Below, piece after piece: positions 6,446 through 55,993 of a stretch of DNA of 64,000 bases (positions are counted from its first letter, which is position 1; the number at the start of each line of letters is the position of its first letter). The notes below the pieces were generated by a model. It searched no databases, was not told the origin of the DNA, and was given only the letters and a program-made list of their open reading frames with translations. Position numbers and translations under genes: made by a program. The stretch comes from Lysobacter sp. yr284. Its GTDB lineage: Bacteria > Pseudomonadota > Gammaproteobacteria > Xanthomonadales > Xanthomonadaceae. The DNA is taken from positions 310,001 through 374,000 of the forward strand of contig NZ_FNPT01000004.1 of assembly GCF_900107375.1 (NCBI RefSeq). Direction: 5' to 3'.

Positions 6446-7201
6446 TCAGCCTGCCTCCGCGACCACGCCGAGCCAGTCGCGCACCTGCGCCGGATCGGCG
6501 AGGCGGTGGCGCGCGCGGGTGTCGGCGCGTTCGCCGACCAGCACGCTGATGCCGCCGTGCGCGTTGACCATGGCGAAGCCGGGCTCGTCGGCCGGATCGT
6601 CGCCGGCGAACACCGGGACGCGGCCGCGGAACGGCGCCAGCCCCAGCAGTTCGACGATCGCGCGGCCCTTGTCCATGCCGTCGGGACGGATTTCGATGCC
6701 GTGTGCGCCTCGGTGCTGGCGGTAGCCCGGCAGGCGGGTCAGCGCGGCATCGGCGAACTCGCCCATGGCCGCGGCCGCCCGCGGTGCGGCGCGCCAATGC
6801 AGGTTTAGGCATGGGCCGTGCGCTTCGATGCAGGCGCCGGGATAGTCGAGGGCGAAGCGCGCGGCCTCGCCGGCCAGCGCCAGCATCGATTCCGGCGGCG
6901 CCGGCGCGCGCAGCGGCGCATGCGCGCTGCGCCGCTCCAGCCCATGCATGCCGCTCAGGCACAGCTCGGCGCAATCGGGGAAGAGCGACTGCAGCGATTG
7001 CAGCGAGCGGCCGCTGACGAGCGCGAGCGCGCCGTCGAGTTCGGCGGCGAGACGGCGCAGGCGTTGCGGCAACTGCGGCGGAACGCGGGCGAGATGGGGG
7101 GCGGGCGCGTGCTCAAGCAGACAACCGTCCACGTCGAGGAACAAAGCCCAGTCGGACGCAGGCGCCGGCGGCGCGGTGCGCGAAATGTGTATCGAAGCCA
7201 T
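6446..7201 (-). CDS. otsB: trehalose-6-phosphate phosphatase
   Basis: A 251-residue HAD-superfamily phosphatase that removes phosphate from trehalose-6-phosphate. Motif I is FLDVDGCLLE (nucleophile and acid aspartates, near residues 23-25), followed by ALVSGRS, the lysine segment DGMDKGRAIVELL and the metal-binding GDDPADEPGF. It is the first gene of the trehalose/glucan operon and is divergent from the VOC gene. The 304-base spacer between them holds one of the candidate enhancer sites, so the two directions might share control, although no sigma-54 promoter faces otsB. Confidence 0.93.
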   Translation of the reverse strand: MASIHISRTAPPAPASDWALFLDVDGCLLEHAPAPHLARVPPQLPQRLRRLAAELDGALALVSGRSLQSLQSLFPDCAELCLSGMHGLERRSAHAPLRAPAPPESMLALAGEAARFALDYPGACIEAHGPCLNLHWRAAPRAAAAMGEFADAALTRLPGYRQHRGAHGIEIRPDGMDKGRAIVELLGLAPFRGRVPVFAGDDPADEPGFAMVNAHGGISVLVGERADTRARHRLADPAQVRDWLGVVAEAG

Positions 7202-7299
7202 GAACTCATCCTAACGCTGCGGATGTAATGGATCGGTTCAAGGATTCGCCAGAAAGCGCACGAAAATTAGTGCGTTATCCATCGCACGGTCGTTGTCTG

Positions 7300-7315
7300 C
7301 GCGAAGATTTTTCCG
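7300..7315 (-). promoter_or_regulatory. candidate activator site (UAS) for P2
   Basis: On the minus strand this reads CGGAA-AAATC-TTCGCG, the best match to the shared pattern. It lies about 120 bases upstream of the -24 element of the VOC promoter and about 100 bases from the otsB start. Confidence 0.5.
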
Positions 7316-7425
7316 CGCCGTGCAATTGTTGCAGCGATGCCGGGCAATATCGCGCATCGGTACCCGCCGATGCGCGGTAACGCGCAGGCAGCGCTGCTGC
7401 GCGAGCGAGGCGGATGCGCCGCGAG

Positions 7426-7441
7426 TGGCACACGGCTTGCG
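7426..7441 (+). promoter_or_regulatory. sigma-54 (-24/-12) promoter P2
   Basis: Reads TGGCAC-ACGGC-TTGC-G, full consensus with correct spacing. The predicted start point near 7452 gives a leader of about 54 bases to the VOC gene ATG at 7506. Confidence 0.75.
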
Positions 7442-7505
7442 TCTGTCTTTAGATCAGCAGCATGTCGCTGCAGCGCTCGTTCCCGCATCCGACCTGGAGG
7501 AAACC

Positions 7506-7886
7506 ATGCACAGAAGCCGATTGGCGCAAGTGGTGATCGATTGCGAGACGACCGACCCCGATTGGGCCGCACAGTTTTGGGCGCAGGCGCTGGGTTGCCG
7601 TATCGCCACCCTCGGCGATGCCAGCGACGAGATGTACCGCCGCCTGCTGGTGCACGCCGACCAGCCGTGCGTGCTGGTGCAGGCGGTGCCGCACGCCAGC
7701 CGGGTGCACCTGGACATCGAGACCGACGACGTCGAGGCCGAGGTGGTGCGGCTGGAGCAACTCGGCGCGGCGCGCATCGCCCAGGTCAAGCGTTGGTGGG
7801 TGATGGCCGCGCCGACCGGACAGCGCTTCTGCGTGCTGCCGCCGCAGCGCCTGGATTTTCCGGCGCACAGCAACGTCTGGCGCTGA
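7506..7886 (+). CDS. VOC-superfamily (glyoxalase-like) protein
   Basis: A 126-residue single-module vicinal-oxygen-chelate protein: an N-terminal strand with QVVIDCETTDPDWAAQFWAQ, then LVQAVPHASRVHLDIETDDVEAEV and a C-terminal PTGQRFCVLPPQ. The pattern fits the glyoxalase-like subgroup often annotated as VOC family proteins. Substrate unknown; such proteins act on reactive aldehydes, antibiotics or aromatic compounds. The ATG at 7506 is favoured by GGAGG six bases upstream. It is monocistronic and lies behind sigma-54 promoter P2, so it is likely induced together with the SDR/BON and 16102 transcripts. Confidence 0.85.
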   Translation: MHRSRLAQVVIDCETTDPDWAAQFWAQALGCRIATLGDASDEMYRRLLVHADQPCVLVQAVPHASRVHLDIETDDVEAEVVRLEQLGAARIAQVKRWWVMAAPTGQRFCVLPPQRLDFPAHSNVWR

Positions 7887-30603: not shown

Positions 30604-31295
30604 AGCTAGGCACGGAACAAAGCCTTCACAACTTTGCCCAGCACACCATCGAGCTGGGAGTCATCCCGGCGCTGCGCCACTTGGGTATTGGTCTCACGGA
30701 TAGGTCTAACTGAGGCGTTTGCGCATGTCCGCCTATGGCCGATAGCCGTCGGAAGTGCTACGGGAGCCGGTACATTTCCGCCCCAACCCCTTCAGTGCCT
30801 AGCTTCCGCCGCGGCCTGAGCTGCGGACGGCCCGAAGATGTTTCGGAGTGCGGTCGCCCCCCGGGGCGGTCCGCGCGCCGATCAGCCGAGGCGATGCTTG
30901 AAGGAGACCGGTCGGTCGCCAAGACGATCATGATCGTGGATAATTCTAGATAACCGTGGATAACCCTGGGTAATCAAGAGAGTTGGATTCCGGTTGCCCA
31001 CGCTCCACCATTCCCCCGCGGTCGAACCGCGCCTGTCCGCCGCACTCCTCGCGAAAAGGCCTTGTTTCCGGCTCTTTCGTCGCAGGCCTGTGGACTCGTC
31101 AAATATCCACAGCCCCTGATTTGGCGAAAATTCCGCCGAACTTTCTCCGTTTTCTCCCTTCCCGTGGACTGCCGGCCAGTGGATCGGTTTTAGGGGTCTT
31201 ACGGATCAATGGGTTACGGCTGGTCGTTTCGACGGGTTTTATCGCGATCAACCTGCTGCGCAGGATTCAAACTACGAACCAATGGATGGTTGCGA
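30604..31295. other. right border of the island, no clear gene
   Basis: A 692-base non-coding stretch. It contains two CGTGGATAA motifs 20 bases apart (30934-30942 and 30954-30962), which resemble DnaA boxes on the minus strand, but no other origin features. No tRNA, integrase fragment or direct repeat matching the left border was recognised. Confidence 0.4.
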
Positions 31296-38852: not shown

Positions 38853-39005
38853 ACCGGGCGGTACGCGAGCGCTGACGGCCAGCCGCTTCTGCGCCGTGCG
38901 GCAGGCGGCGTGCGCCTGTGGCGCAGCGATGTCAGTCGCCGGCGTCGTATTCCGATCCGTAGGGGTGCCGGGCGATTCCGGCGCTACCTACCGAGGAAGG
39001 ACACG

Positions 39006-40943
39006 ATGACTACCGCAAAGCTGCGCCGTGCCAGGCTGGTCCTGGCGATCGCGCTCAGTCTGGGGATGGGCCTGGCCCACGCCGCTTGCCCGAATGGGGC
39101 GGGCGGCAACGAAGGCGAGGAGGGAGGATTCGGCAACGATACCTGCGTCCTCGGCGACACCGCGTTCGGCGACAGCAACCTCGCTCAGTACGGACAGGCG
39201 TTCGGATTCGCCAACAGCGCGATAGGCACCGACCAACGCTCCGCCGTCGCGCTCGGCTGGGGCAACGGTGCGCGCGGGGCCGGTGCGGTCGCCATCGGCT
39301 TGCAATCGAAAGCCGAGGGCGCGCGCGCCTTCAGCGCAGGCGACGGCGCCAGCAGTACCGCGCAGAACGCGATCGCCATCGGCGGCGATGCCGCGGCGAG
39401 CGCCGAAAACGCGGTCGCGCTGGGCGCCGGCAGCGTCGCCAGCGGCCTGGGCAGCAGCGCGTTCGGCTATATCAGCCAAGCCCAGGGCGAATACAGCACG
39501 GCCCTGGGCCAGTTCGCCCGCGCGCTCGGCCAGACCTCCACCGCGGTGGGCGCGGGCGCCTTCGCCGAAACCGCGTATACCACCGCGGTCGGCGCCCAGG
39601 CCGTCGCCAGCAATTACTGGGCGACCGCAGTAGGCCAGAACGCCAGGGCGACCGGCGAATACTCGACCGCCATCGGCCGCGATTCGCAGGCCGAATTCAG
39701 CCGCGCCACCGCGGTGGGCGTGGCCACCCGCATTTCCGGCGACAACGCCACCGCGGTGGGCACCGACGCCTCCGCGGCCGAGAACGCGGTCGCGTTCGGA
39801 CGCGATTCCAAGGCGGCGACCATGAACAGCACCGCGTTGGGCAGCGCCGCCGATGCGTCCGGAGCAGCGGGCGTAGCGGTCGGGTACGCGTCCAAGGCGC
39901 TGGGCGTCGCCTCGGTGGCGCTGGGCACCGGCGCCGAAGTCCTGGCGGGCAACATCGGCACCGCGATCGGGTTCGGGGCCAAGTCCAGCGCGTTCTGGGG
40001 CGTGGCCCTGGGCAACAACTCCAGCGCCGACCGCGACTACGCCGTTTCCATCGGCAGCAACGCGTTCAAGCGGCAATTGATCAATCTGCAAGACGGCACC
40101 CAGGACACCGATGCGGTCAACCTGCGCCAACTCAAGAACGCGCTGAACCTGGCGCCGGTCGCGGCGGCCTTCGGCGGCGGAGCGAGCTACGCGGACGGCG
40201 TTTTCTCCGGCCCGACTTACGCCATCCAGGGCAACAGCTTCGGCAATGCCGGCGATGCGTTTGTGGCCATCGACGGCGAACTGAGCGCGCTCAAGGCGCG
40301 TGCGGATCTGGCCGTGTACTACGACGATGCCGGTAAAGGCAGCGTCACCTTGAAGGGCGGGGGAGGCGGAGGCGGCAACGGCGGCGATGCCGCCACGGGC
40401 ACCCAGGTCAAGAACCTCGGCGACGCTGTAGACGACATGGATGCGGTCAACAAGCGGCAGATGGAGGCGGGCGACCTGGCCACGCTGGAGTCGGCCAACG
40501 GCTACACCGATACCCGCGAGCGCGAGCTGCGCGGCGACATGGCCAGCGGCGACGCCACCGTCCTGGTTTCGGCCAAGACCTATACCGACACCACCGCCAC
40601 GGCCACCTTGACGTCGGCCAATGCCTACACCGACAGCCGCTTCAATGCCCTGAGCGATGCATTCGACACCTTCCGCGGCGATGTCGACCGCCGTTTCCAG
40701 CAGCAGGATCGGCGGATCGACCGGCTGGCGGCGATGAGCGGCGCCTACGCCGGCATGGCGATGAACACCGCCGGCCTCGCGGGGCAGAACCGTATCGGCG
40801 TGGGCGTCGGCGGGCAGGGAGGCGCTGCGGCCATGGCGATCGGCTACCAACGCACGATCGGCGAGCGCGCCAGCGTCTCGATCGGTGCGGCGTTTGGCGG
40901 CGGCGAGAGAAGCGTGATGGGTGGCGCCGGCTACAGCTGGTGA
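39006..40943 (+). CDS. YadA-like trimeric autotransporter adhesin
   Basis: A 645-residue surface protein. A signal peptide (LVLAIALSLGMGLAHA, cleavage near residue 26) is followed by a head of about 14-residue repeats such as ENAVALGAGSVASG and NSTALGSAADASG (to about residue 360), a neck motif QDTDAVNLRQLKNAL, a Gly-rich linker, a second neck MDAVNKRQM, a short coiled-coil stalk (FRGDVDRRFQQQDRRIDRL), and the YadA anchor ending in the aromatic residue of GGAGYSW. Three chains form the outer-membrane pore and a fibre for adhesion. GAGGAAGGA before the ATG at 39006 supports the start. It overlaps or just precedes a secreted-protein gene. Confidence 0.92.
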   Translation: MTTAKLRRARLVLAIALSLGMGLAHAACPNGAGGNEGEEGGFGNDTCVLGDTAFGDSNLAQYGQAFGFANSAIGTDQRSAVALGWGNGARGAGAVAIGLQSKAEGARAFSAGDGASSTAQNAIAIGGDAAASAENAVALGAGSVASGLGSSAFGYISQAQGEYSTALGQFARALGQTSTAVGAGAFAETAYTTAVGAQAVASNYWATAVGQNARATGEYSTAIGRDSQAEFSRATAVGVATRISGDNATAVGTDASAAENAVAFGRDSKAATMNSTALGSAADASGAAGVAVGYASKALGVASVALGTGAEVLAGNIGTAIGFGAKSSAFWGVALGNNSSADRDYAVSIGSNAFKRQLINLQDGTQDTDAVNLRQLKNALNLAPVAAAFGGGASYADGVFSGPTYAIQGNSFGNAGDAFVAIDGELSALKARADLAVYYDDAGKGSVTLKGGGGGGGNGGDAATGTQVKNLGDAVDDMDAVNKRQMEAGDLATLESANGYTDTRERELRGDMASGDATVLVSAKTYTDTTATATLTSANAYTDSRFNALSDAFDTFRGDVDRRFQQQDRRIDRLAAMSGAYAGMAMNTAGLAGQNRIGVGVGGQGGAAAMAIGYQRTIGERASVSIGAAFGGGERSVMGGAGYSW

Positions 40944-40978
40944 GTGCGCCCGTATCCAAACACAACCGGAGAACTACC

Positions 40979-41575
40979 TTGAAACTCGATCTGCTCGGCG
41001 CTGTTGTGGCCGCCATCGCGTTCGTCGCACCCCACGCCTGCGGGGCGCGGGAAAATACCGCTCCCCGTGGCGATTGGTTGCCGGCTCCGCCCGTGCTGCG
41101 ATCGCTGTGCCTGCGGCCGTACAGCCAGACCGTCGTCGTGCGGTTGCCGTCCGGATACTCGGGCTACGCAGGGTCCTTCTCCTGGGGCAGTCGCTATCTG
41201 CGTGTCGACAAGGTCACCGCGCGCCTGCATCAGCCGGGGATGTGGGCTGCCGACCTCGGCGGCACCAGCGCGAACGAATTCGGTTGGTACCCGATGCGCA
41301 TGGACGGCAGTAGCGCCGTGTACGCCAGCGCCGTGGACGGTGCGATCTATCTGGATCCGAACACATCGGGCAGTGTGGTGCTCTACCGCCGCGGCACCGG
41401 CGCGCCCGGCAGCGGCGAGTTCACGGTGGAGGGCTGCCGGGTGGACCAGCGGCCCGAGCCGACGCTCAGGCCGGAAATCGTGGTACCGCACTTGCCGCGC
41501 GAATTCCCTTGGGCGAGCGATCGGCCAGCGTCGTTGCCGATCACCGGGCAGCCGGTGCAACTTCGCAGCCGCTGA
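40979..41575 (+). CDS. secreted hypothetical protein downstream of the adhesin
   Basis: A 198-residue exported protein from the TTG at 40979, which follows CGGAGAA by about six bases and gives a clean signal peptide (LLGAVVAAIAFVAPHACGA). A GTG at 40940 overlapping the adhesin stop would add 13 basic residues. The mature part is strand-rich (QTVVVRLPSGYSGYAGSFSW, SGSVVLYRRGTG) with two cysteines. I know no family. Its position suggests a periplasmic or surface helper of the adhesin, but this is inference. Confidence 0.65.
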   Translation: MKLDLLGAVVAAIAFVAPHACGARENTAPRGDWLPAPPVLRSLCLRPYSQTVVVRLPSGYSGYAGSFSWGSRYLRVDKVTARLHQPGMWAADLGGTSANEFGWYPMRMDGSSAVYASAVDGAIYLDPNTSGSVVLYRRGTGAPGSGEFTVEGCRVDQRPEPTLRPEIVVPHLPREFPWASDRPASLPITGQPVQLRSR

Positions 41576-41582
41576 ACCTGCG

Positions 41583-42329
41583 GTGCGCCATTCGAGCGCG
41601 TCGCGGACATCCGCGCCCGGCAGCGTGTTCTGCATCCGCGACCCGTTCCGGGAGATCGGCACCTTGGTGCTGCGCGCCGGTACGTACGATGACGGCACGC
41701 TGGCAGAAGGCGCCATTCTGGTCGTGGCGGTGCAAGACGTGTTCGGCCTGCCCGCGACAAGCTATCTCCAGCCGCAGCCGCCGGTGTGGACGCCGCCGGA
41801 TCGAAATCCGCAGCCGGCGCCGACGCGGCGGCTGTTGGAGGCTGGTTATCGGGATCTGGCCAGCACGCTTGATCCCGCTGCGCTGCCGGCGGACGCGGGC
41901 TTGGTCCTGGCCGTGGGCGAACAGCCCGCTGGCCTGGCGCTGAACTACATACCGACCACGCGCGTGGGCGGTGGCGCGTACAGCGAGGCCGGCACCAGCG
42001 ATCCGGAAGCGCAGCTGGCCAAGGGCCATCTGCGCTTCGAACTGTTCGGGCACAAGCTCAAGGGCGGCTGGCATCTGGTGCGTTCGGGCAAGCCGGCGCG
42101 GCCACCGCAGTGGCTGCGGTTCGGACTTTACGAGCGACGCCACGAGGAATACAGCGGCGAGCTTGAGAAATTCCATTGGGCCAACAACGTTTCCCTCGCC
42201 TTGGTTGATCGAGATGATCGGGTGGTGTGGGAAGCCGGCGAAGGGTCATCTGCCATCCACGACCCGATGAATGCCGTCGAACGCAGGGCCGCGAACCTGG
42301 ATCAAGTCATCGACAATCTTTTGCCCTGA
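41583..42329 (+). CDS. chimeric protein with embedded LigD phosphoesterase fragment
   Basis: A 248-residue frame from the GTG at 41583, with no clear ribosome site. The first 135 residues are unrecognised (GTLVLRAGTYDDGTLAEGAI, VVAVQDVFGLP, RLLEAGYRDLASTLDP). Residues 140-195 are unmistakably a copy of LigD: QLAKGHLRFELFGHKLKGGW and HLVRSGKPAR, matching LigD residues 111-165. The tail (NVSLALVDRDDRVVWEAGE, VIDNLLP) looks like the end of an envelope lipoprotein. Most likely a recombinant or decaying gene. The phosphoesterase catalytic residues are not included, so no ligase-related activity is expected. Confidence 0.55.
   Translation: MRHSSASRTSAPGSVFCIRDPFREIGTLVLRAGTYDDGTLAEGAILVVAVQDVFGLPATSYLQPQPPVWTPPDRNPQPAPTRRLLEAGYRDLASTLDPAALPADAGLVLAVGEQPAGLALNYIPTTRVGGGAYSEAGTSDPEAQLAKGHLRFELFGHKLKGGWHLVRSGKPARPPQWLRFGLYERRHEEYSGELEKFHWANNVSLALVDRDDRVVWEAGEGSSAIHDPMNAVERRAANLDQVIDNLLP
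41999..42165 (+). repeat. second copy of part of ligD
   Basis: Matches 18143-18305 in the phosphoesterase domain of ligD. Over the first 39 codons I count 13 nucleotide differences by eye; after that the similarity weakens with a short insertion. The frame is preserved. Confidence 0.8.
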
Positions 42330-42926: not shown

Positions 42927-45791
42927 TCAACGAAAGGGCCGGGGGACGCTCAAGCTCAATATCGACGGCACGTGTTCCGGATCGGCAGCGCGCAAGCATG
43001 CATAGGCCATGCCGCTAAGCCCGATCATCAAACCCAACGGCATCTCGTTTTCAGTGCGGCCGCCGCAAACCCAGCGGTTGCTGCCCTGAACCAACAGTGC
43101 GTCGGCGAGCCGGCGGCATCGCGCCAACAATGCCGGGTCGCCGGACTGAACCGCCCATTCAAGCGGAAAGTCGAGGTTGCCCCAACTTCCATGGCAGAGG
43201 CAGTGTCCCGCAGCGTCGTCCATGCCGACAAGCACGGCGTTCAAGCAATGATCGACGTCGCGCTCCCAGGCGGCATCGCGATAGGCCGCCGGCCAAAGCA
43301 GACGCGCCAGTCCCACGCCGGAGGCGCCATGGCACCACGATGCGGTCCCCTTGCGTGCCTGCGTTGCGTTCGTCGTGTCGAGGTCGTACCACGAGCCTCC
43401 GCGGCGTCGGTAGGCGACACGTTCCCGCTCGAGCGCGGACAGGGCCATTCTCAGGCAGCGCGCATCGTCGAATGCGGTCGAATAGCGGGCCAGCGCCACC
43501 GCGATGCCCGCGGCCCCGTGTGCGAATCCGGTCGCACCCAGGGCATCGTCGCTCCCGTCGTGCCAGTACGCGCCGAACGCGTCTTGCTTGGCGGCTGCAA
43601 TCAGGCGATCGGCGCAGCATCTGATCGCTGCGCGCAAGTCGGGATCATTGCGATGGACGTGCAGTTGCAGCAGCACCAGGAGGCAACCCGCGACACCGGA
43701 GATGACATCGAGCTCCCGGTCTTCGGCAATGCGCTCGGAAATGGTCGGAACCCACGCGAGCGCGGCATCAACCAAGTCGGGCCGCCGCTGGCGCACTCCC
43801 AACACCAGCAGTGCATACATCCAGCCGCTCAGGCCGTTGAAGGCACCGATCGCGGGCAGGACGTGCGGGTTGCGCCGCAGGCGGCGGTCGATGGATTCCA
43901 TCGCTGCCGCCGAGCGGGCGACGAGTTCGCTGTGACCGGTCCGTAGCCCCGTTTCCGACAGCATCAGCATCACCCCCGCAAGCCCCTCGTACAGCGCTTC
44001 GTCCATCTGGGCCAGGCGCGGGACGTCTTCGCAGGAATAGTCGAGATGAATGAACCGGGTTTCGCCGCGATCGCAGAAACGCATCGCCACGATCTGATCC
44101 GCGATCTGCAGCGCCATCTCCTCGAAAGAACGCGGAGCGGCGCGTTCGCGCCTGGCAGCCATCGGGCGAGACGTCATCGCGGGCTCATCGAGCCGGGTGC
44201 TTTCCAGCGACTGATGGAGCAGATAGCGTTGCCTGCGGAAATCCTGCGGCGAAAGGGATCGCACGCGCTTTCGCATTTCCCGGATGCCGGAACTCGAAAA
44301 AAGCCCGCCGGCGCCGCGCCCGTCCTCGTCCTCGACCTCCAGGCGGTCTCCGCGGATCCAGAACCTCGGAACGTCGCCGCGCTCGAGGGCGCGTCGTTCC
44401 GAACAACCAACGCTGCGCAGCCCGGGCCAATCCTCGTAGCCCACATTCAGCCTGTCCAGGGCCTCGCTCCGCTTGCACCGGTCCCGCAGGTACTTGGGAT
44501 GCGACATGGCGTCCAGCAGGCGACCGTAGATCGCGGTGGATCGCAGTACGGCCCTCGACTTGAGGCCGGAGAATTGCGACAAGGGGCCGTCCTCGGCGAG
44601 CAGCCAATCCTTGTTGTCCAGCAAACCGGCGTAGGTGGATTCGAAACCCCGCAGAATCGAATCGGCGTACGCATAGGGAAGCGATGCGCCACCGTCGTCG
44701 CGTACCGGAAGGTTCTGTCCATGGCCTGGTTTTTCTTTGACCTGCGCCAGCCGAATTTCATCGCTGCCGGCGCCTATGATCCTGTGCACGAGGCGATGCT
44801 CGGCGCCGGTCGACAGACCGCTGATGTCCACCGACTCCAGCATGCTCTCTCTGGTGGGCAGCAATCCGGATTCCAGAATGGATCTGGCGCCGGCCGCCCA
44901 GCCATTACCTTGTTCGATTTGGTCGGAGCGCGGCTGGCATAACGTCTCCAGATCGACGATGACCGGATAGCCTGCGGAGGCGATGACGTTCTCAAAATGC
45001 AGGTCCGAAGCGGCAATCACATGGGCGATGGCTATCAGGCCCCCATACCGGCAGTAGTAGGAGGCTGCCGCTTCCTCACCGCCTATCGGGACGTGCTCGA
45101 TAGGCTCGGCATATCCGTAGGTTCCTTTGTCGAGCACGAGCGGCGCGCGCTGTCCCGGCCGGATTCCCCGATCCGCGAGCATGCGCAGGCATCGGGCAAA
45201 TGCCGTGTCCATGGCCATCGGGCGCGGCTTGTAGAACAGGGCCCCGCGCTCGAACGCCAGCCGCGCCACGGTGTTGCCGCCGTCGTGTCTGTCGCCCAGG
45301 CCCGTTTCGAAACCGCGCCACGCTCCGATTCCGCAGGCGCCGGGAACCACCGCGCCCAACGAGGCGTGATCTTTCGTGATGCGCTCCAGGAGCAGGTACA
45401 GCGTCCGTTCGACTTGCGTCGTGATGCGGACGATATCGCCGCTCAGCAGCGGATAGTTCTTTTCGATGGCGCTGCGGCCGCAGGCGCTTTGAATATGCTC
45501 GATGAAGAACTGGAATTTGTCCTGTGCGGTATCCCCGCGCAGGAGCCCGCGATGGCGGGCCAGGGCGATCTCCAGGATCAGGGCGCGAAAGCTCCACAGC
45601 AGCAGTGGAGTCGAAAATGCCGAGCGGATGCTCGGCAGCAGGCTTTGGGAGTCGAGCTTGTCCGGATGACTTCGGGCGGCGGATTCGTAGATGCCCGCGA
45701 CACGATACAGCGCCGGCTCGAACAACGGCCCTGCCCACCCCAGGAAAGGGTCCAGTCTTCGCAGGTCCTCGTCGCTCAGCATGACCGGCAC
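42927..45791 (-). CDS. lanM: class II lanthipeptide synthetase (LanM)
   Basis: A 954-residue bifunctional enzyme that dehydrates Ser/Thr in a precursor peptide and then forms lanthionine rings with Cys. The N-terminal dehydratase domain has RGALFYKPRP (Lys188), the catalytic segment DLHFENVIASAGYPVIVDLE (263-282) and SGLKSRAVLRSTAIYG. The C-terminal LanC-like cyclase (about 590-954) keeps all three zinc ligands: Cys820 in WCHGASG, Cys866 and His867 in CLCHGSWG. Length is normal. The GTG at 45789-45791 gives the longest form; an ATG at 45782 is also possible, neither with a clear ribosome site. The precursor gene lies 46 bases upstream with a hairpin between. No transporter is adjacent. Confidence 0.93.
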   Translation of the reverse strand: MPVMLSDEDLRRLDPFLGWAGPLFEPALYRVAGIYESAARSHPDKLDSQSLLPSIRSAFSTPLLLWSFRALILEIALARHRGLLRGDTAQDKFQFFIEHIQSACGRSAIEKNYPLLSGDIVRITTQVERTLYLLLERITKDHASLGAVVPGACGIGAWRGFETGLGDRHDGGNTVARLAFERGALFYKPRPMAMDTAFARCLRMLADRGIRPGQRAPLVLDKGTYGYAEPIEHVPIGGEEAAASYYCRYGGLIAIAHVIAASDLHFENVIASAGYPVIVDLETLCQPRSDQIEQGNGWAAGARSILESGLLPTRESMLESVDISGLSTGAEHRLVHRIIGAGSDEIRLAQVKEKPGHGQNLPVRDDGGASLPYAYADSILRGFESTYAGLLDNKDWLLAEDGPLSQFSGLKSRAVLRSTAIYGRLLDAMSHPKYLRDRCKRSEALDRLNVGYEDWPGLRSVGCSERRALERGDVPRFWIRGDRLEVEDEDGRGAGGLFSSSGIREMRKRVRSLSPQDFRRQRYLLHQSLESTRLDEPAMTSRPMAARRERAAPRSFEEMALQIADQIVAMRFCDRGETRFIHLDYSCEDVPRLAQMDEALYEGLAGVMLMLSETGLRTGHSELVARSAAAMESIDRRLRRNPHVLPAIGAFNGLSGWMYALLVLGVRQRRPDLVDAALAWVPTISERIAEDRELDVISGVAGCLLVLLQLHVHRNDPDLRAAIRCCADRLIAAAKQDAFGAYWHDGSDDALGATGFAHGAAGIAVALARYSTAFDDARCLRMALSALERERVAYRRRGGSWYDLDTTNATQARKGTASWCHGASGVGLARLLWPAAYRDAAWERDVDHCLNAVLVGMDDAAGHCLCHGSWGNLDFPLEWAVQSGDPALLARCRRLADALLVQGSNRWVCGGRTENEMPLGLMIGLSGMAYACLRAADPEHVPSILSLSVPRPFR

Positions 45792-45792
45792 A

Positions 45793-45820
45793 ATGATGGG
45801 CTGCAGATGCAGCCCATCAT
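45793..45820 (-). promoter_or_regulatory. perfect hairpin between lanA and lanM
   Basis: A 13-bp perfect inverted repeat (ATGATGGGCTGCA / TGCAGCCCATCAT) separated by two bases, ending just before the lanM GTG. No T-run follows. It may attenuate transcription, protect the precursor mRNA end or hide the lanM ribosome site, giving more precursor than enzyme. Confidence 0.6.
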
Positions 45821-45837
45821 CGAGTCCCGCATCGGGA

Positions 45838-45975
45838 TCAGGCGATGCACGTCCAGCGCGGGGTCCACGGCACGCGGCCGCTTTCCATTTTGTCGTCGCA
45901 CAGATCGGGCTCGCCGATCACTTCTTGCTGCAGCTGCTCGAAATCTTCGGTCGAAAGATCGATTTGCACTGGCAT
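45838..45975 (-). CDS. lanA: putative class II lanthipeptide precursor
   Basis: A 45-residue peptide gene directly upstream of lanM in the same direction. GAGAGGATC about ten bases before the ATG at 45973-45975 is a good ribosome site. The acidic leader begins PVQIDLSTEDFEQLQQEVIG, typical of amphipathic LanM leaders. The C-terminal part holds Ser32, Thr38, Thr42 and Cys43 in RVPWTPRWTCIA, with another Cys at 26. If the core starts after residue 28-34, only one (methyl)lanthionine ring is possible, for example Thr38 to Cys43; Thr42 is adjacent to the Cys and would stay open or dehydrated. There is no double-glycine motif. The assignment rests on position, size and composition. Confidence 0.75.
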   Translation of the reverse strand: MPVQIDLSTEDFEQLQQEVIGEPDLCDDKMESGRVPWTPRWTCIA

Positions 45976-46589
45976 GGTCAAGATCCTCTCCACAGATGGT
46001 CAGCGGACATCGCTCCGAGTCAGCCGCACATTCGTCCGCATTAATGTGCAGCAATGGTGCCAGGCCGTTGTTCGATACAAGCAGAACATCCAAGCGCTTT
46101 TGCAACTTATTCAAGTGTTCCTTAATGGTGGTTTCACATTCCTGTCCCGCCGACCGCCCGCCCGATACGACGTTGCGGTTCCGGCGTCGCACATGAATCG
46201 CAATCGGGCGATTTCGATCGGGCGATCGGAGCATACGTCGCAAAGCGGCAGGCGTCGGACCCGATCCTTACCGGTCCGGCGATAGCGAACTGCCAAATCC
46301 TCTAGCATTTCCACGATATCTCGCCCGTTGGCCTTCAGGCAGGCGTCAATGCCGACGTGGATCGCAGGTTCGACGTCGCCCAGCGCATTCGCCGGCAGCG
46401 CGGCAGGTCCGGTGCATGCCAACGGCGTGCGCGAAAGTCCCAGCTATGTATCCGGCCGGCTGCGGCCTGATTTAATATCGCGTTGAACGTCGCCTCCCGC
46501 ACGATCCGCTCCGCCTCGCGTCTGGCCTGGCCCGCTGCGGGCCGGTCGTATTGCGGCTCCACGTCGGCCCCGGCAAAAAGGACATTTGC
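45976..46589. other. region upstream of lanA
   Basis: A 614-base region. The 150 bases upstream of lanA are AT-richer than the surroundings and should hold its promoter. On the minus strand 46249-46389 is a gene fragment (listed separately). The remainder shows no coding-like frame. Confidence 0.45.
46249..46389 (-). pseudogene. fragment related to the stress-type protein at 16102
   Basis: About 47 codons read GDVEPAIHVGIDACLKANGR and DIVEMLEDLAVRYRRTG, clearly similar to YGDYEPAVKLGMDAFMRSRGR and EMEDELETCYRRTRG of the protein encoded at 16102-16548. The similarity stops on both sides, and the only upstream start is a TTG at 46422. Probably a decayed or truncated paralog. Confidence 0.5.
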
Positions 46590-47078
46590 ATGATCGCTTC
46601 CAGTTTCTTGTGGCTCCTGCTGGCCGCGGCTCCCGCGTCGGATGCCGATGCGCACGATGCGAAGAGCGTGGACGCGACGATGTGCGGGCCGGCAACCGAG
46701 ATTTTCCTGCCGGACAACCAGGTCGCTGCGAATGTGCGGCTGGAACACCTGCAGTACATGAGCCCAGGCGATCCGTGCGGCCGCAACTTCAAGCACGACG
46801 AAATCAAACTGCTGTACGAGCGGGTGAAGGCGGCCGCCGTTTCGTCGTTTGCCGGCAGCGAGGCCGGGTTCGGCGTCATGGTGCGATACGAACTGGCGGC
46901 AGGCAGCCCGATGGAGTTCGAGATGCAGACCAAAAGCGCTCCCGAGGCGGAGAAGGCGCGGCTCGAGCGGTTCTACAATGCCGCGAGCGCGGTCAAAGCG
47001 TTCCAGCCGACCGTCGGAACGGTCCACGTGGTGATGGAATACAGCATCGCGGCGGCGCCGGCGGCCGAGGGGAAATAA
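46590..47078 (+). CDS. secreted hypothetical protein
   Basis: A 162-residue exported protein. The signal peptide is short (MIASSFLWLLLAAAPASDAD), followed by a soluble domain with two cysteines (ATMCGPATEIF, GDPCGRNF) that may form a disulfide, and a C-terminal strand TVGTVHVVMEYSIA. AAGGA nine bases before the ATG at 46590 supports the start. I know no family. It is followed after two bases by a DUF3658-like gene and a lipoprotein gene, forming a small operon. Confidence 0.72.
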   Translation: MIASSFLWLLLAAAPASDADAHDAKSVDATMCGPATEIFLPDNQVAANVRLEHLQYMSPGDPCGRNFKHDEIKLLYERVKAAAVSSFAGSEAGFGVMVRYELAAGSPMEFEMQTKSAPEAEKARLERFYNAASAVKAFQPTVGTVHVVMEYSIAAAPAAEGK

Positions 47079-47080
47079 CA

Positions 47081-47419
47081 ATGTCGGGTCCGCAATACGA
47101 GCCCGCCGATGCGGCGCCCGACGCGGCCGGGCTCGAGCGGATTGCGGCGCTTCGGCCGGAACAGATTCAGGCGATCGACGCGGCGCTGATGAGCGCCTGC
47201 GATCGTGATTGGCGCAAAGTCGCCGGCGTGGTCGGCGGCGCGATGGGCAGCGTTCCCGGCCGGGTCGTCGGCATCTGCGATGGTTACTACGCCGCGCGCG
47301 TTTCCGGGTTGGTGGCGCGCGGGCTGTTGGAATCCAGGGGCGATCTGTCTCGGATGCGCTATAGCGAGGTTCGAGTCGCAAGCCCAGGCAAGTCGCCGTT
47401 CGAGGCTGGCGACCCATGA
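47081..47419 (+). CDS. DUF3658-like cytoplasmic protein
   Basis: A 112-residue protein with the DUF3658-type core: ACDRDWRKVAGVVGGAMG, DGYYAARVSGLVARGLLESR, then GDLSRMRYSEVRV. Such domains behave like small winged-helix modules; their function is unknown. The ATG at 47081 lies two bases after the preceding stop, with GAGGGG upstream. Its stop overlaps the lipoprotein start by four bases. The family call is from motif memory. Confidence 0.7.
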   Translation: MSGPQYEPADAAPDAAGLERIAALRPEQIQAIDAALMSACDRDWRKVAGVVGGAMGSVPGRVVGICDGYYAARVSGLVARGLLESRGDLSRMRYSEVRVASPGKSPFEAGDP

Positions 47420-48593: not shown

Positions 48594-49529
48594 TCATGCC
48601 TGTGCGGCGTCCGATCCGGGTTTTCGGTCGCCGCCGGCCGCATCGGGGCAGGCGTCGCCCGAGGCGACCGACGGCGATGGATCGAGGTTCGGCAGGATCC
48701 ACGCGCGTTTGCCGGTATCGTCGTAGACCACGCGCAAGCGCCGCAGGATCGCCAGGCCGATGTTGGCGGTGCCGCCTTCCATGAAACGGATCTCGGGATG
48801 CTCCAATCGCAACGGCCCGACGCACAGCGCGCCTTTCAGCCGCGCCGAGAAAATCGGCTGGCGCCCGGCGGCGGAGACCGCATAGCCGATCCGGACCGGT
48901 TCGGCCTGCAGCGCCACCTGGTCCTTGTATCGCATCGGCAGGATCAGGGCGCTGTCGTTGCCGCTGTCCAGCTTCGCCGGCAACCGCAGCGCGCCGATTT
49001 CGAGCATCAGCGAGGGAAGCCGGTCGGCGTACGGCAGCGCCGGGCCGGGGGGCGCGTTGTCGTCGGTGCGCGGGGTCAGGACGAGGCGGCTGCCGGGGCC
49101 GTCCATCTCGACGAAGTGCTCGGGGAAGCTGTTCGGGCCGAAGATGCCGATCTCGTCGGGCTGGTCGTAGGCGAGCGCGGTCGCGCGCGCGTCGGCGATG
49201 GCGACGCCTCCCAGGCGGGCGTTCTTGATGAAGGTGTCGTGGCCCGGCACCGGCTTGCCGGTGCTGCCGTCGATCGAGGGCGAGGGACCGGTATTGGGCA
49301 GGCCCAGGGATCGGGCCAGCCCGAGGTCGACCAGGTTGCCGTTGGTGCCGGTGTCGAATACGGCCGGAAACGGCGGATGCGATCCTATCCGCACCATCAC
49401 CAGGGCGCGGGTGGCCGACAGGTACAGCGGGATTTCCTCGCGCTTGGGCGCCGCTGCGGCGGCGGGCATCGTCGCGAATCCGAGCAGGAAAATGGACGTC
49501 AGTAATTTGGTCAAAGTCGGTCCCGACAC
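48594..49529 (-). CDS. secreted retropepsin-like aspartyl protease
   Basis: A 311-residue exported protein. The signal peptide runs to about residue 26 (LLTSIFLLGFATMPAAAAA). The active-site motif FPAVFDTGTNGNLVD is followed later by a second related motif AKLDSGNDSALIL, so a single chain may hold both half-sites. The C-terminal 25 residues are disordered. Acts in the periplasm or outside; substrate unknown. The GTG at 49527-49529 is listed; a TTG seven codons later is possible. It is divergent from a PadR regulator with a palindrome between them, so it is likely repressed by PadR. Confidence 0.82.
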   Translation of the reverse strand: MSGPTLTKLLTSIFLLGFATMPAAAAAPKREEIPLYLSATRALVMVRIGSHPPFPAVFDTGTNGNLVDLGLARSLGLPNTGPSPSIDGSTGKPVPGHDTFIKNARLGGVAIADARATALAYDQPDEIGIFGPNSFPEHFVEMDGPGSRLVLTPRTDDNAPPGPALPYADRLPSLMLEIGALRLPAKLDSGNDSALILPMRYKDQVALQAEPVRIGYAVSAAGRQPIFSARLKGALCVGPLRLEHPEIRFMEGGTANIGLAILRRLRVVYDDTGKRAWILPNLDPSPSVASGDACPDAAGGDRKPGSDAAQA

Positions 49530-55177: not shown

Positions 55178-55340
55178 CGATGGCGGGTAGGGGGTGTGCT
55201 GTCACTGGCTGGCGGATGCGCTCTGGCGTTGCGCGTGATGCAGTCTCACTGGTTGCGGGATGTTCCTCATTGGTCGTGGGATGCGTCCTCAGTAGTCGCG
55301 GGATGCGCCTTCACTGATCGGGATCCGCGTTCTTGCCTGC

Positions 55341-55368
55341 CGTCGTTCCGGCGAAAGCCGGAATCCAC
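55341..55368 (+). repeat. REP-like hairpin, copy 1
   Basis: GTTCCGGC-GAAA-GCCGGAAT followed by CCAC. An inverted copy lies at 55711-55739. Confidence 0.8.
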
Positions 55369-55455
55369 TTTGACTTTTCTGTTGCCCTTGCTCTTATTGA
55401 AGCAGCGAGTGACGACAAGCCTCGATCCAAAGCTTCCGTCCGCAAGCGGCCGGGT

Positions 55456-55583
55456 CACTTTCTTTGTCCAAAGCAACAAAGAAAGTAACCAAAGAAAGTG
55501 CTTTTCCCTGTTTCGAATCAAGAGCCACTATGGCTCACAGGCGCGCGGGGCCGCGCCATAAGGGGCATCCTGCCCCATGGCGC
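55456..55583. repeat. composite intergenic repeat with two stems
   Basis: CACTTTCTTTG at 55456-55466 pairs with CAAAGAAAGTG at 55490-55500 (11 of 11), with an additional CAAAGAAAGT in between. A second stem at about 55553-55583 uses GCGCCAT/ATGGCGC and GGGGCA/TGCCCC. I recognise this layout from other Xanthomonadaceae intergenic regions. Confidence 0.65.
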
Positions 55584-55673
55584 GCGTGCGCATCCATGCG
55601 CACGCCCTCCGGGGCTGCGGAACGCGTGCTTTACGTGGGGTTGCGTCCGAGCGAAGAGCGAAGAGCGAAAGCA

Positions 55674-55703
55674 ACGGCAGCGGCAGCGGCAGCGGCAGCG
55701 GCA
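55674..55703. repeat. GGCAGC tandem repeat
   Basis: About five units of GGCAGC between 55674 and 55703. A short run of GCGAAGA units precedes it at about 55650-55669. Confidence 0.75.
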
Positions 55704-55710
55704 AGATCTT

Positions 55711-55739
55711 GTGGATTCCGGCTTTCGCCGGAATGACGG
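55711..55739 (-). repeat. REP-like hairpin, copy 2 (inverted)
   Basis: GTGGATTCCGGC-TTTC-GCCGGAATGACGG is the reverse complement of copy 1 at 55341-55368 with one difference. The two copies face each other about 340 bases apart. Confidence 0.8.
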
Positions 55740-55993
55740 CAAGTGGGAGGCGAGGCGGTTGTGTTATCGCAATCGCAATCCCGCGCGGTTCTTTCAGCAC
55801 AACACGAAACCGACCGAAGCCCCTGTAGGAGCTGCGCAAGCCGCGACCGCGACCAGCGGCAACGACGAAAGGTCCGGCGCAGCTACGCTCCCGCCCCAGT
55901 CGCTGGCGCTGATGGACGGAACCTCAACGCTTCAAGGCCCCGAAGATCAGAAGCGAGAACCGGGACACGGCCTGCAGTCGCCGTCTGCCGCCG

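Follow-up and report, generated by a model that had tools for sequence, protein, structure and literature searches.

Is a 45-residue peptide with a single cysteine in its core the substrate of the lanthipeptide synthetase encoded next to it, and what would the enzyme make of it? The question is raised by a compact locus on the minus strand of a 64,000-nucleotide stretch of the Lysobacter sp. yr284 genome (the window, whose positions are used throughout), where a sequence-only reading had recognised a class II synthetase (LanM) and, just upstream, its presumed precursor gene. The two genes are made up as follows:

42927-45791, minus strand: lanM, class II lanthipeptide synthetase of 954 residues, GTG start (Pfam, TIGR03897, CylM alignment)
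44358-45455, minus strand: DUF4135 dehydratase domain, LanM residues 113-478 (Pfam, E 8.1e-88)
42957-44006, minus strand: LANC_like cyclase domain, LanM residues 596-945 (Pfam, E 6.8e-58)
45838-45975, minus strand: lanA with its stop codon, encoding the 45-residue precursor (ATG start, 45 codons)
45984-45991, minus strand: GGAGAGGA, ribosome-binding-like site of lanA (from sequence)

The synthetase and the short gene before it

The enzyme is complete, as the sequence-only reading had held. An N-terminal DUF4135 and a C-terminal LANC_like domain in one chain mark it as a class II synthetase, and it covers positions 15-932 of the 932 in the TIGR03897 profile (649.5 bits; cut-off 304), which makes it full length. 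In the alignment to the solved CylM, residues D252/H254, D347/H349/N352, D364/E366, R506/T512 and C875/C911/H912 of that enzyme fall on D167/H169, D263/H265/N268, D280/E282, R413/T419 and C820/C866/H867 of the window LanM. We take these CylM residues to have catalytic and zinc-binding roles; all twelve matched residues are invariant among eight aligned LanMs of the subfamily described below. Since dN/dS for lanM is 0.29 between the window and genome G008 (0.034/0.116) and 0.32 between the window and L. aquatica (0.211/0.657), the enzyme is under constraint. In three other members, from G001, G003 and G016 (L039, L040 and L041), a search ahead of the conserved N-terminal stretch of lanM (IDPALRPLLRW) turned up no ATG, GTG or TTG.

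Compared with the LicM2 and CylM systems, the window LanM has the same two-domain build and matching catalytic and zinc residues (E 5e-84 to LicM2, 6st5; E 1.2e-28 to CylM, 5dzt) but is distant in sequence. The locus also differs from those systems in its precursor, which has one core Cys and no double-glycine site, and in that no LanT or LanP gene was found beside lanA-lanM.

The product of lanA, translated from the window, is MPVQIDLSTEDFEQLQQEVIGEPDLCDDKMESGRVPWTPRWTCIA (45 residues). The gene lies on the same strand as lanM, 46 bases upstream of it, with 8 bases between the end of GGAGAGGA and the ATG, and the peptide carries Ser32, Thr38, Thr42 and Cys43; as to the 46 bases, the ribosome site and the four residues the earlier description proved accurate. 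An alternative GTG start, which would give a 51-residue frame, is also present. We prefer the 45-residue version because sister lanA peptides, when aligned, begin at the same Met-Pro. The second cysteine of the peptide, Cys26, belongs to the leader part.

Pairing of lanA with LanM across genomes

LanMs of the window's subfamily were found in 8 of 60 genomes searched, the source genome G000 included, all of them in the genus (at least 43% identity and at least 689 bits; next best match 203 bits). In profile searches of 20 genus genomes, the 8 with lanA coincided exactly with the 8 that have a subfamily LanM. A scan of named genomes, which used an alignment of relatives and two peptide patterns, kept the best 80 matches and was not exhaustive, added loci in Luteimonas panaciterrae, L. 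aquatica (two loci), Rhodanobacteraceae ZG21-1 and Fulvimonas sp. R45, with LanMs 45-70% identical to that of the window (next locus 34%); records equal to G005, G011 and G003 were counted once. With a single protein as query the same scan found no relative, whereas the alignment-based scan did. Among 398 sampled genomes of the order there were seven subfamily LanMs in six genomes, each scoring at least 1314 bits, while every other match listed reached at most 560 bits. The lanA profile matched in seven of these 398 genomes, and six of the matches adjoin a subfamily LanM; one match, in G295 (E 1e-3), has an internal stop and was taken as chance.

Altogether 13 subfamily LanM genes were found, 8 of them in Lysobacter-group genomes, and at least one lanA of the same leader family lies upstream of every one (one at 11 loci, two in Fulvimonas and four in ZG21-1, 17 in total). 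The sequence-only reading had made its case depend on the frame being conserved beside related LanM genes, and at 13/13 loci it is. In a tree the 13 enzymes cluster together (100/100), to the exclusion of the remaining four G000 LanMs; those three whose peptides share the RVPW-type core form one clade (100/100), and the remaining ten group with 87/99.

The profiles used for the 20-genome and 398-genome searches included the window peptide itself. An HMM of 13 lanA relatives, with the window, G008 and L. aquatica locus a copies left out, recovered the window lanA (E 9.6e-9, 31.3 bits) and, among 1183 six-frame segments, nothing else above the inclusion threshold; the best of the 20-fold shuffled segments scored 10.7 bits. 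Used alone as a query, the window peptide finds only G008 at E<=0.001 (2 of 60 genomes, counting itself), so a profile is needed to reach the sister peptides. Within G000 the lanA profiles matched nowhere else. Taken together, these comparisons strongly support the 45-residue peptide as the substrate of the adjoining LanM, as had been proposed from the window alone. The precursor beside lanM, the conserved leader and a core with Ser/Thr and Cys are what assigns the product to its class.

The family shares a recognisable leader, which in the window is:

45886-45975, minus strand: approximate leader part (residues 1-30), alignable and conserved across the sister lanA peptides

Its consensus among aligned peptides is roughly MPxxxxIxxxxxxRLxxESIGxxDLxDDKLVD, and across the family the leader is kept while the core diverges by clade. 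Double-glycine leaders (those of PCAT substrates) have models such as NHLP and Nif11. None of the Pfam and NCBIfam models matches the window leader, and the whole peptide matched no Pfam family, DUF6229 (PF19740) included, at E<=10. Eight aligned lanA peptides gave weak Pfam matches to two other families only (best E 0.042), and among further sister peptides (five against Pfam, six against NCBIfam) none reached a cut-off. As controls, the peptides beside the other G000 LanMs (4/4) and one from G377 (1/1) all matched PF19740. By these searches lanA is a new precursor family, one that none of the Pfam or NCBIfam models names. The window peptide also contains no GG, GA or GS motif, in agreement with the earlier remark that a double-glycine site is missing. 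Lys or Arg at leader position 29, present in 15 of 16 aligned peptides (the G016 peptide, identical to that of G001, was left out), may mark a possible cleavage site.

At the codon level, leader codons 1-30 show a synonymous change in 1 of 23 comparable codons between the window and L. aquatica, against 223 of 638 codons in lanM (binomial P 7e-4, uncorrected). RNA structure as the cause was rejected: the leader folds no better than its shuffles (z 0.32, -0.62 and 0.74).

The core and its predicted ring

The ring prediction rests on three positions in the window:

45841-45876, minus strand: core residues 34-45, RVPWTPRWTCIA, identical in three species, with synonymous changes in 4 codons
45862-45864, minus strand: codon of Thr38, the predicted ring donor; Thr is kept through three different codons
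45847-45849, minus strand: codon of Cys43, the predicted ring acceptor, the only Cys kept in the three RVPW-type peptides

The core RVPWTPRWTCIA, known from three sequences of which two are close, occurs at three loci (window, G008, L. aquatica locus a) with LanMs that are 70-93% identical. Across its 12 codons there are no amino-acid changes, and Thr38 and Thr42 are each encoded by three different codons in the three species. Residues differ among the three peptides only at positions 5, 9, 26, 27, 28, 32 and 33. Because position 32 is Ser (window), Thr (G008) or Asn (L. aquatica) and position 26 is Cys, Cys or Arg (Arg in Luteimonas), the three peptides can have no more than one thioether in common. 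If Thr42, next to Cys43, lies too close to serve as ring donor, the donor is Thr38, the only kept core Ser or Thr not adjacent to Cys43. Conservation cannot tell which of Thr38 and Thr42 is modified, both being equally conserved. From these alignments we predict that the product most likely bears one methyllanthionine ring, Thr38-Cys43, perhaps with Dhb42. The single-ring part of the sequence-only reading, which rested on one core Cys, stands; Ser32, which it had listed with the C-terminal residues, is not a conserved donor, and in practice Thr38 would take that role.

Two other products deserve weighing. A larger ring, joining Ser32 or Thr32 of the Lysobacter peptides to Cys43 and enclosing GRVPWTPRWT, is permitted by the window and G008 sequences; it is improbable, given that L. 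aquatica has an otherwise identical core with Asn32, which cannot be a donor, and on this ground Ser32 was ruled out as the conserved one. We likewise consider it unlikely that Thr38 and/or Thr42 are only dehydrated, leaving a linear Dhb peptide with Cys43 free or in a disulfide. LanM products with a free Cys or without cyclisation are known (LanII-2B, in the accessible part of PMC9576775), but none of the three RVPW-type peptides lacks Cys43, and eight LanMs show no variation in the zinc residues of the cyclase. The Thr38-Cys43 ring remains our preferred reading, and we regard lanA and lanM as probably forming an operon of two genes, whose product would be a class II lanthipeptide closed by a single thioether.

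Elsewhere in the family the cores range from one to four Cys on one leader type. Five genus genomes (G001, G003, G005, G006 and G016) have the core type SSNLLSLSCVYTSCHNC, carried by the same leader type before LanMs 44-46% identical to that of the window; these sister peptides differ from the window peptide in having three core Cys, for up to three rings. The lanA of G011 has a two-Cys core, and TAN[TS]C[YW]R[ST]C-type cores occur in two Luteimonas and two Rhodanobacteraceae peptides. Four different lanA precede one LanM in ZG21-1 (L047, about 6447-7846), and two of these four peptides have single-Cys cores, Thr-rich and with the Cys at or next to the C-terminus.

The locus invites comparison with several described lanthipeptides. 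According to the accessible parts of PMC9576775 and PMC11451712, the rhodanocin/DUF6229 systems of Dyella and Lysobacter are likewise class II, occur in Lysobacterales and have lanA adjoining lanM; rhodanocin, from Dyella, has three rings and a DUF6229 precursor (PMC9576775). The window peptide, in contrast, has no DUF6229 match and its LanM lies in another clade (100/100). One C-terminal methyllanthionine is reported for a class IV product of Chondromyces crocatus (PMC9576775, accessible part), but the enzyme here is class II and the peptides are unlike. The class II LanII-2E also has one ring and is thought to be only partly modified (same part of PMC9576775); its core has four Cys, and the peptide is again unlike that of the window. 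We do not regard the locus as a system of a new kind; it is most likely a variant, with one ring, of a class already known.

Location, export and a proposed route to the product

Between the genes, and in the surroundings of the unit, the following features were noted:

45791-45822, minus strand: stem-loop of 14 pairs between lanA and lanM (folding), its last base the G of the GTG start
42935-46194, minus strand: block of 3,260 bases shared with G008 at 94.5% (nucleotide comparison)
48594-49529, minus strand: aspartyl-protease-like gene, 2.6 kb from lanA (Pfam)

The stem-loop folds better than shuffled sequence in the window (z -5.3), G008 (-5.1), L. aquatica locus a (-3.5) and G006 (-4.1); in G001 z is -2.0, with 10 of 200 shuffles as good. 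A perfect stem of at least 12 pairs lies within 100 bases after the last lanA at 9 of 13 loci. In L. panaciterrae it has 9 pairs (11 of 200 shuffles as good), and at three of the 13 (G001, G003 and G016) it is short or interrupted, with only 5-6 perfect pairs. At both L. aquatica loci and in ZG21-1 the stem is followed by a T run, like an intrinsic terminator; the window stem has none after it and does not appear in a terminator scan. We read the stem as a putative attenuator, an mRNA-protecting role being equally possible. No sigma-70-like promoter was found for the unit (0, with 0.8 expected).

The lanA-lanM unit occupies different chromosomal places in related species. Outside the shared block, no match to the window was found in 19.5 kb surrounding the G008 locus (E 1e-5, more than 60 bases). 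The G008 unit lies at 2.94 Mb and adjoins a LacI-type regulator gene, while the genes right of the window unit are at 1.38-1.41 Mb there (84-86% and 91-93% to their counterparts in two comparisons). The L. aquatica unit is flanked by genes for S-adenosylhomocysteine hydrolase and MTHFR. None of the neighbouring genes recurs at all three loci (window, G008, L. aquatica); the latter two have in common a single stretch of about 0.9 kb, lying some 7 kb away from lanA-lanM. A clean empty site was not found in G008, where the stretch compared matches the window at 46979-47373 and 30999-31251 only. Nor was a copy found on a known plasmid: tblastn with LanM gave 192 plasmid records, all below 60% identity (27-30% in the 8 listed). 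Phage families gave no match.

Other parts of the window drew separate notice. Positions 38910-40943 (plus strand) encode a trimeric, YadA-like autotransporter comprising head, stalk and anchor domains. At 40940-42329 (plus strand) two overlapping frames meet near 41575, either two genes or one with a frameshift; the second has a weak, below-cut-off LigD_N match. The region at about 55340-55900 is repeat-like, and most of those listed among 211 G008 matches to a 10.7-kb query fall there.

No dedicated protease or exporter gene was found beside lanA-lanM, a point against the one-ring operon. The sequence-only reading had stated that no transporter or protease is nearby. Its first half holds for the eight window genes given to Pfam (0/8 transporters; other ORFs were inspected by reading only), and its second is qualified by the aspartyl-protease-like gene. 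Its view that a unit without export genes would be unusual is weakened by the source genome. G000 holds five LanM genes, and a PF03412 search found one C39 peptidase, in a frame read as stand-alone, and no C39-ABC transporter; with five LanMs in the genome, the missing C39 transporter is a genome trait and not specific to this locus. The other four G000 LanMs each adjoin a DUF6229 precursor (4/4; E 2.2e-22 to 1.5e-12):

L002 4472-4681, minus strand: DUF6229 precursor beside another LanM (PF19740 match)
L003 933-1118, plus strand: DUF6229 precursor beside another LanM (PF19740 match)
L004 1191-1382, plus strand: DUF6229 precursor beside another LanM (PF19740 match)
L005 4363-4560, minus strand: DUF6229 precursor beside another LanM (PF19740 match)

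Near one of the other G000 LanMs (L162) there is also an ORF with a Walker-A motif.

The absence of an export or protease gene beside the locus and of a detectable promoter would suit a silent remnant that has lost its transporter and protease and makes nothing. We hold this to be very unlikely: lanM dN/dS is about 0.3, the core is unchanged in three species, and the sister loci examined are also lanA-lanM units without a shared neighbour. That the 45-codon frame is not the LanM substrate and the true one lies elsewhere, as a peptide poor in Ser/Thr/Cys and matched by no family model might suggest, is scarcely credible against the pairing at 13/13 loci, the co-occurrence in 8/20 genomes and the lack of another lanA profile match in G000.

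For the one-ring operon we propose the following route. A short lanA-lanM mRNA would be made, on which the stem-loop that follows lanA probably reduces the amount of LanM compared with that of the peptide. LanM would bind the leader (about residues 1-30) and phosphorylate Thr38, perhaps Thr42 too, and elimination of phosphate would give Dhb. The zinc-bound cyclase site would add the Cys43 thiol to Dhb38, closing a methyllanthionine ring of six residues (T-P-R-W-T-C) close to the C-terminal end of a peptide rich in Trp, Pro and Arg. Proteins encoded elsewhere would remove the leader, possibly by a cut after Lys29 or Arg34, and export the product. The most likely role is that of a released peptide acting on other cells, in antagonism or signalling. 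More tentatively, these may be minimal units of about 3.3 kb, lanA plus lanM with clade-specific cores, set in unrelated places without export or protease genes of their own, one clade being fixed on the RVPWTPRWTCIA ring (Thr38-Cys43) across two genera; the product might then act inside the cell or leave by lysis or a shared route.

According to PMC10745450, in its accessible part, no lanthipeptide has been isolated from Lysobacter. The accessible text of PMC11451712 counts 72 class II clusters in 24 Lysobacter genomes, with 27 unique precursors, picked by eye for many Ser/Thr/Cys, of which 21 are DUF6229; the six others may include the SSNLLSLSC type. The lanA family is not named in the accessible parts of PMC7268733 and PMC11667668 (the main text of the former never mentions 'Lysobacter' or 'Luteimonas'), and in the open-access literature, supplements aside, we found no paper treating the window peptide. 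That peptide stands outside DUF6229, the majority type among the unique class II precursors mined in Lysobacter (PMC11451712, accessible part). One leader type with one to four core Cys offers a natural series in which to ask what sets the number of rings that LanM makes. In its one-ring member, ring formation should be readable from one trypsin digest, because there is one conserved acceptor and, in practice, one donor.
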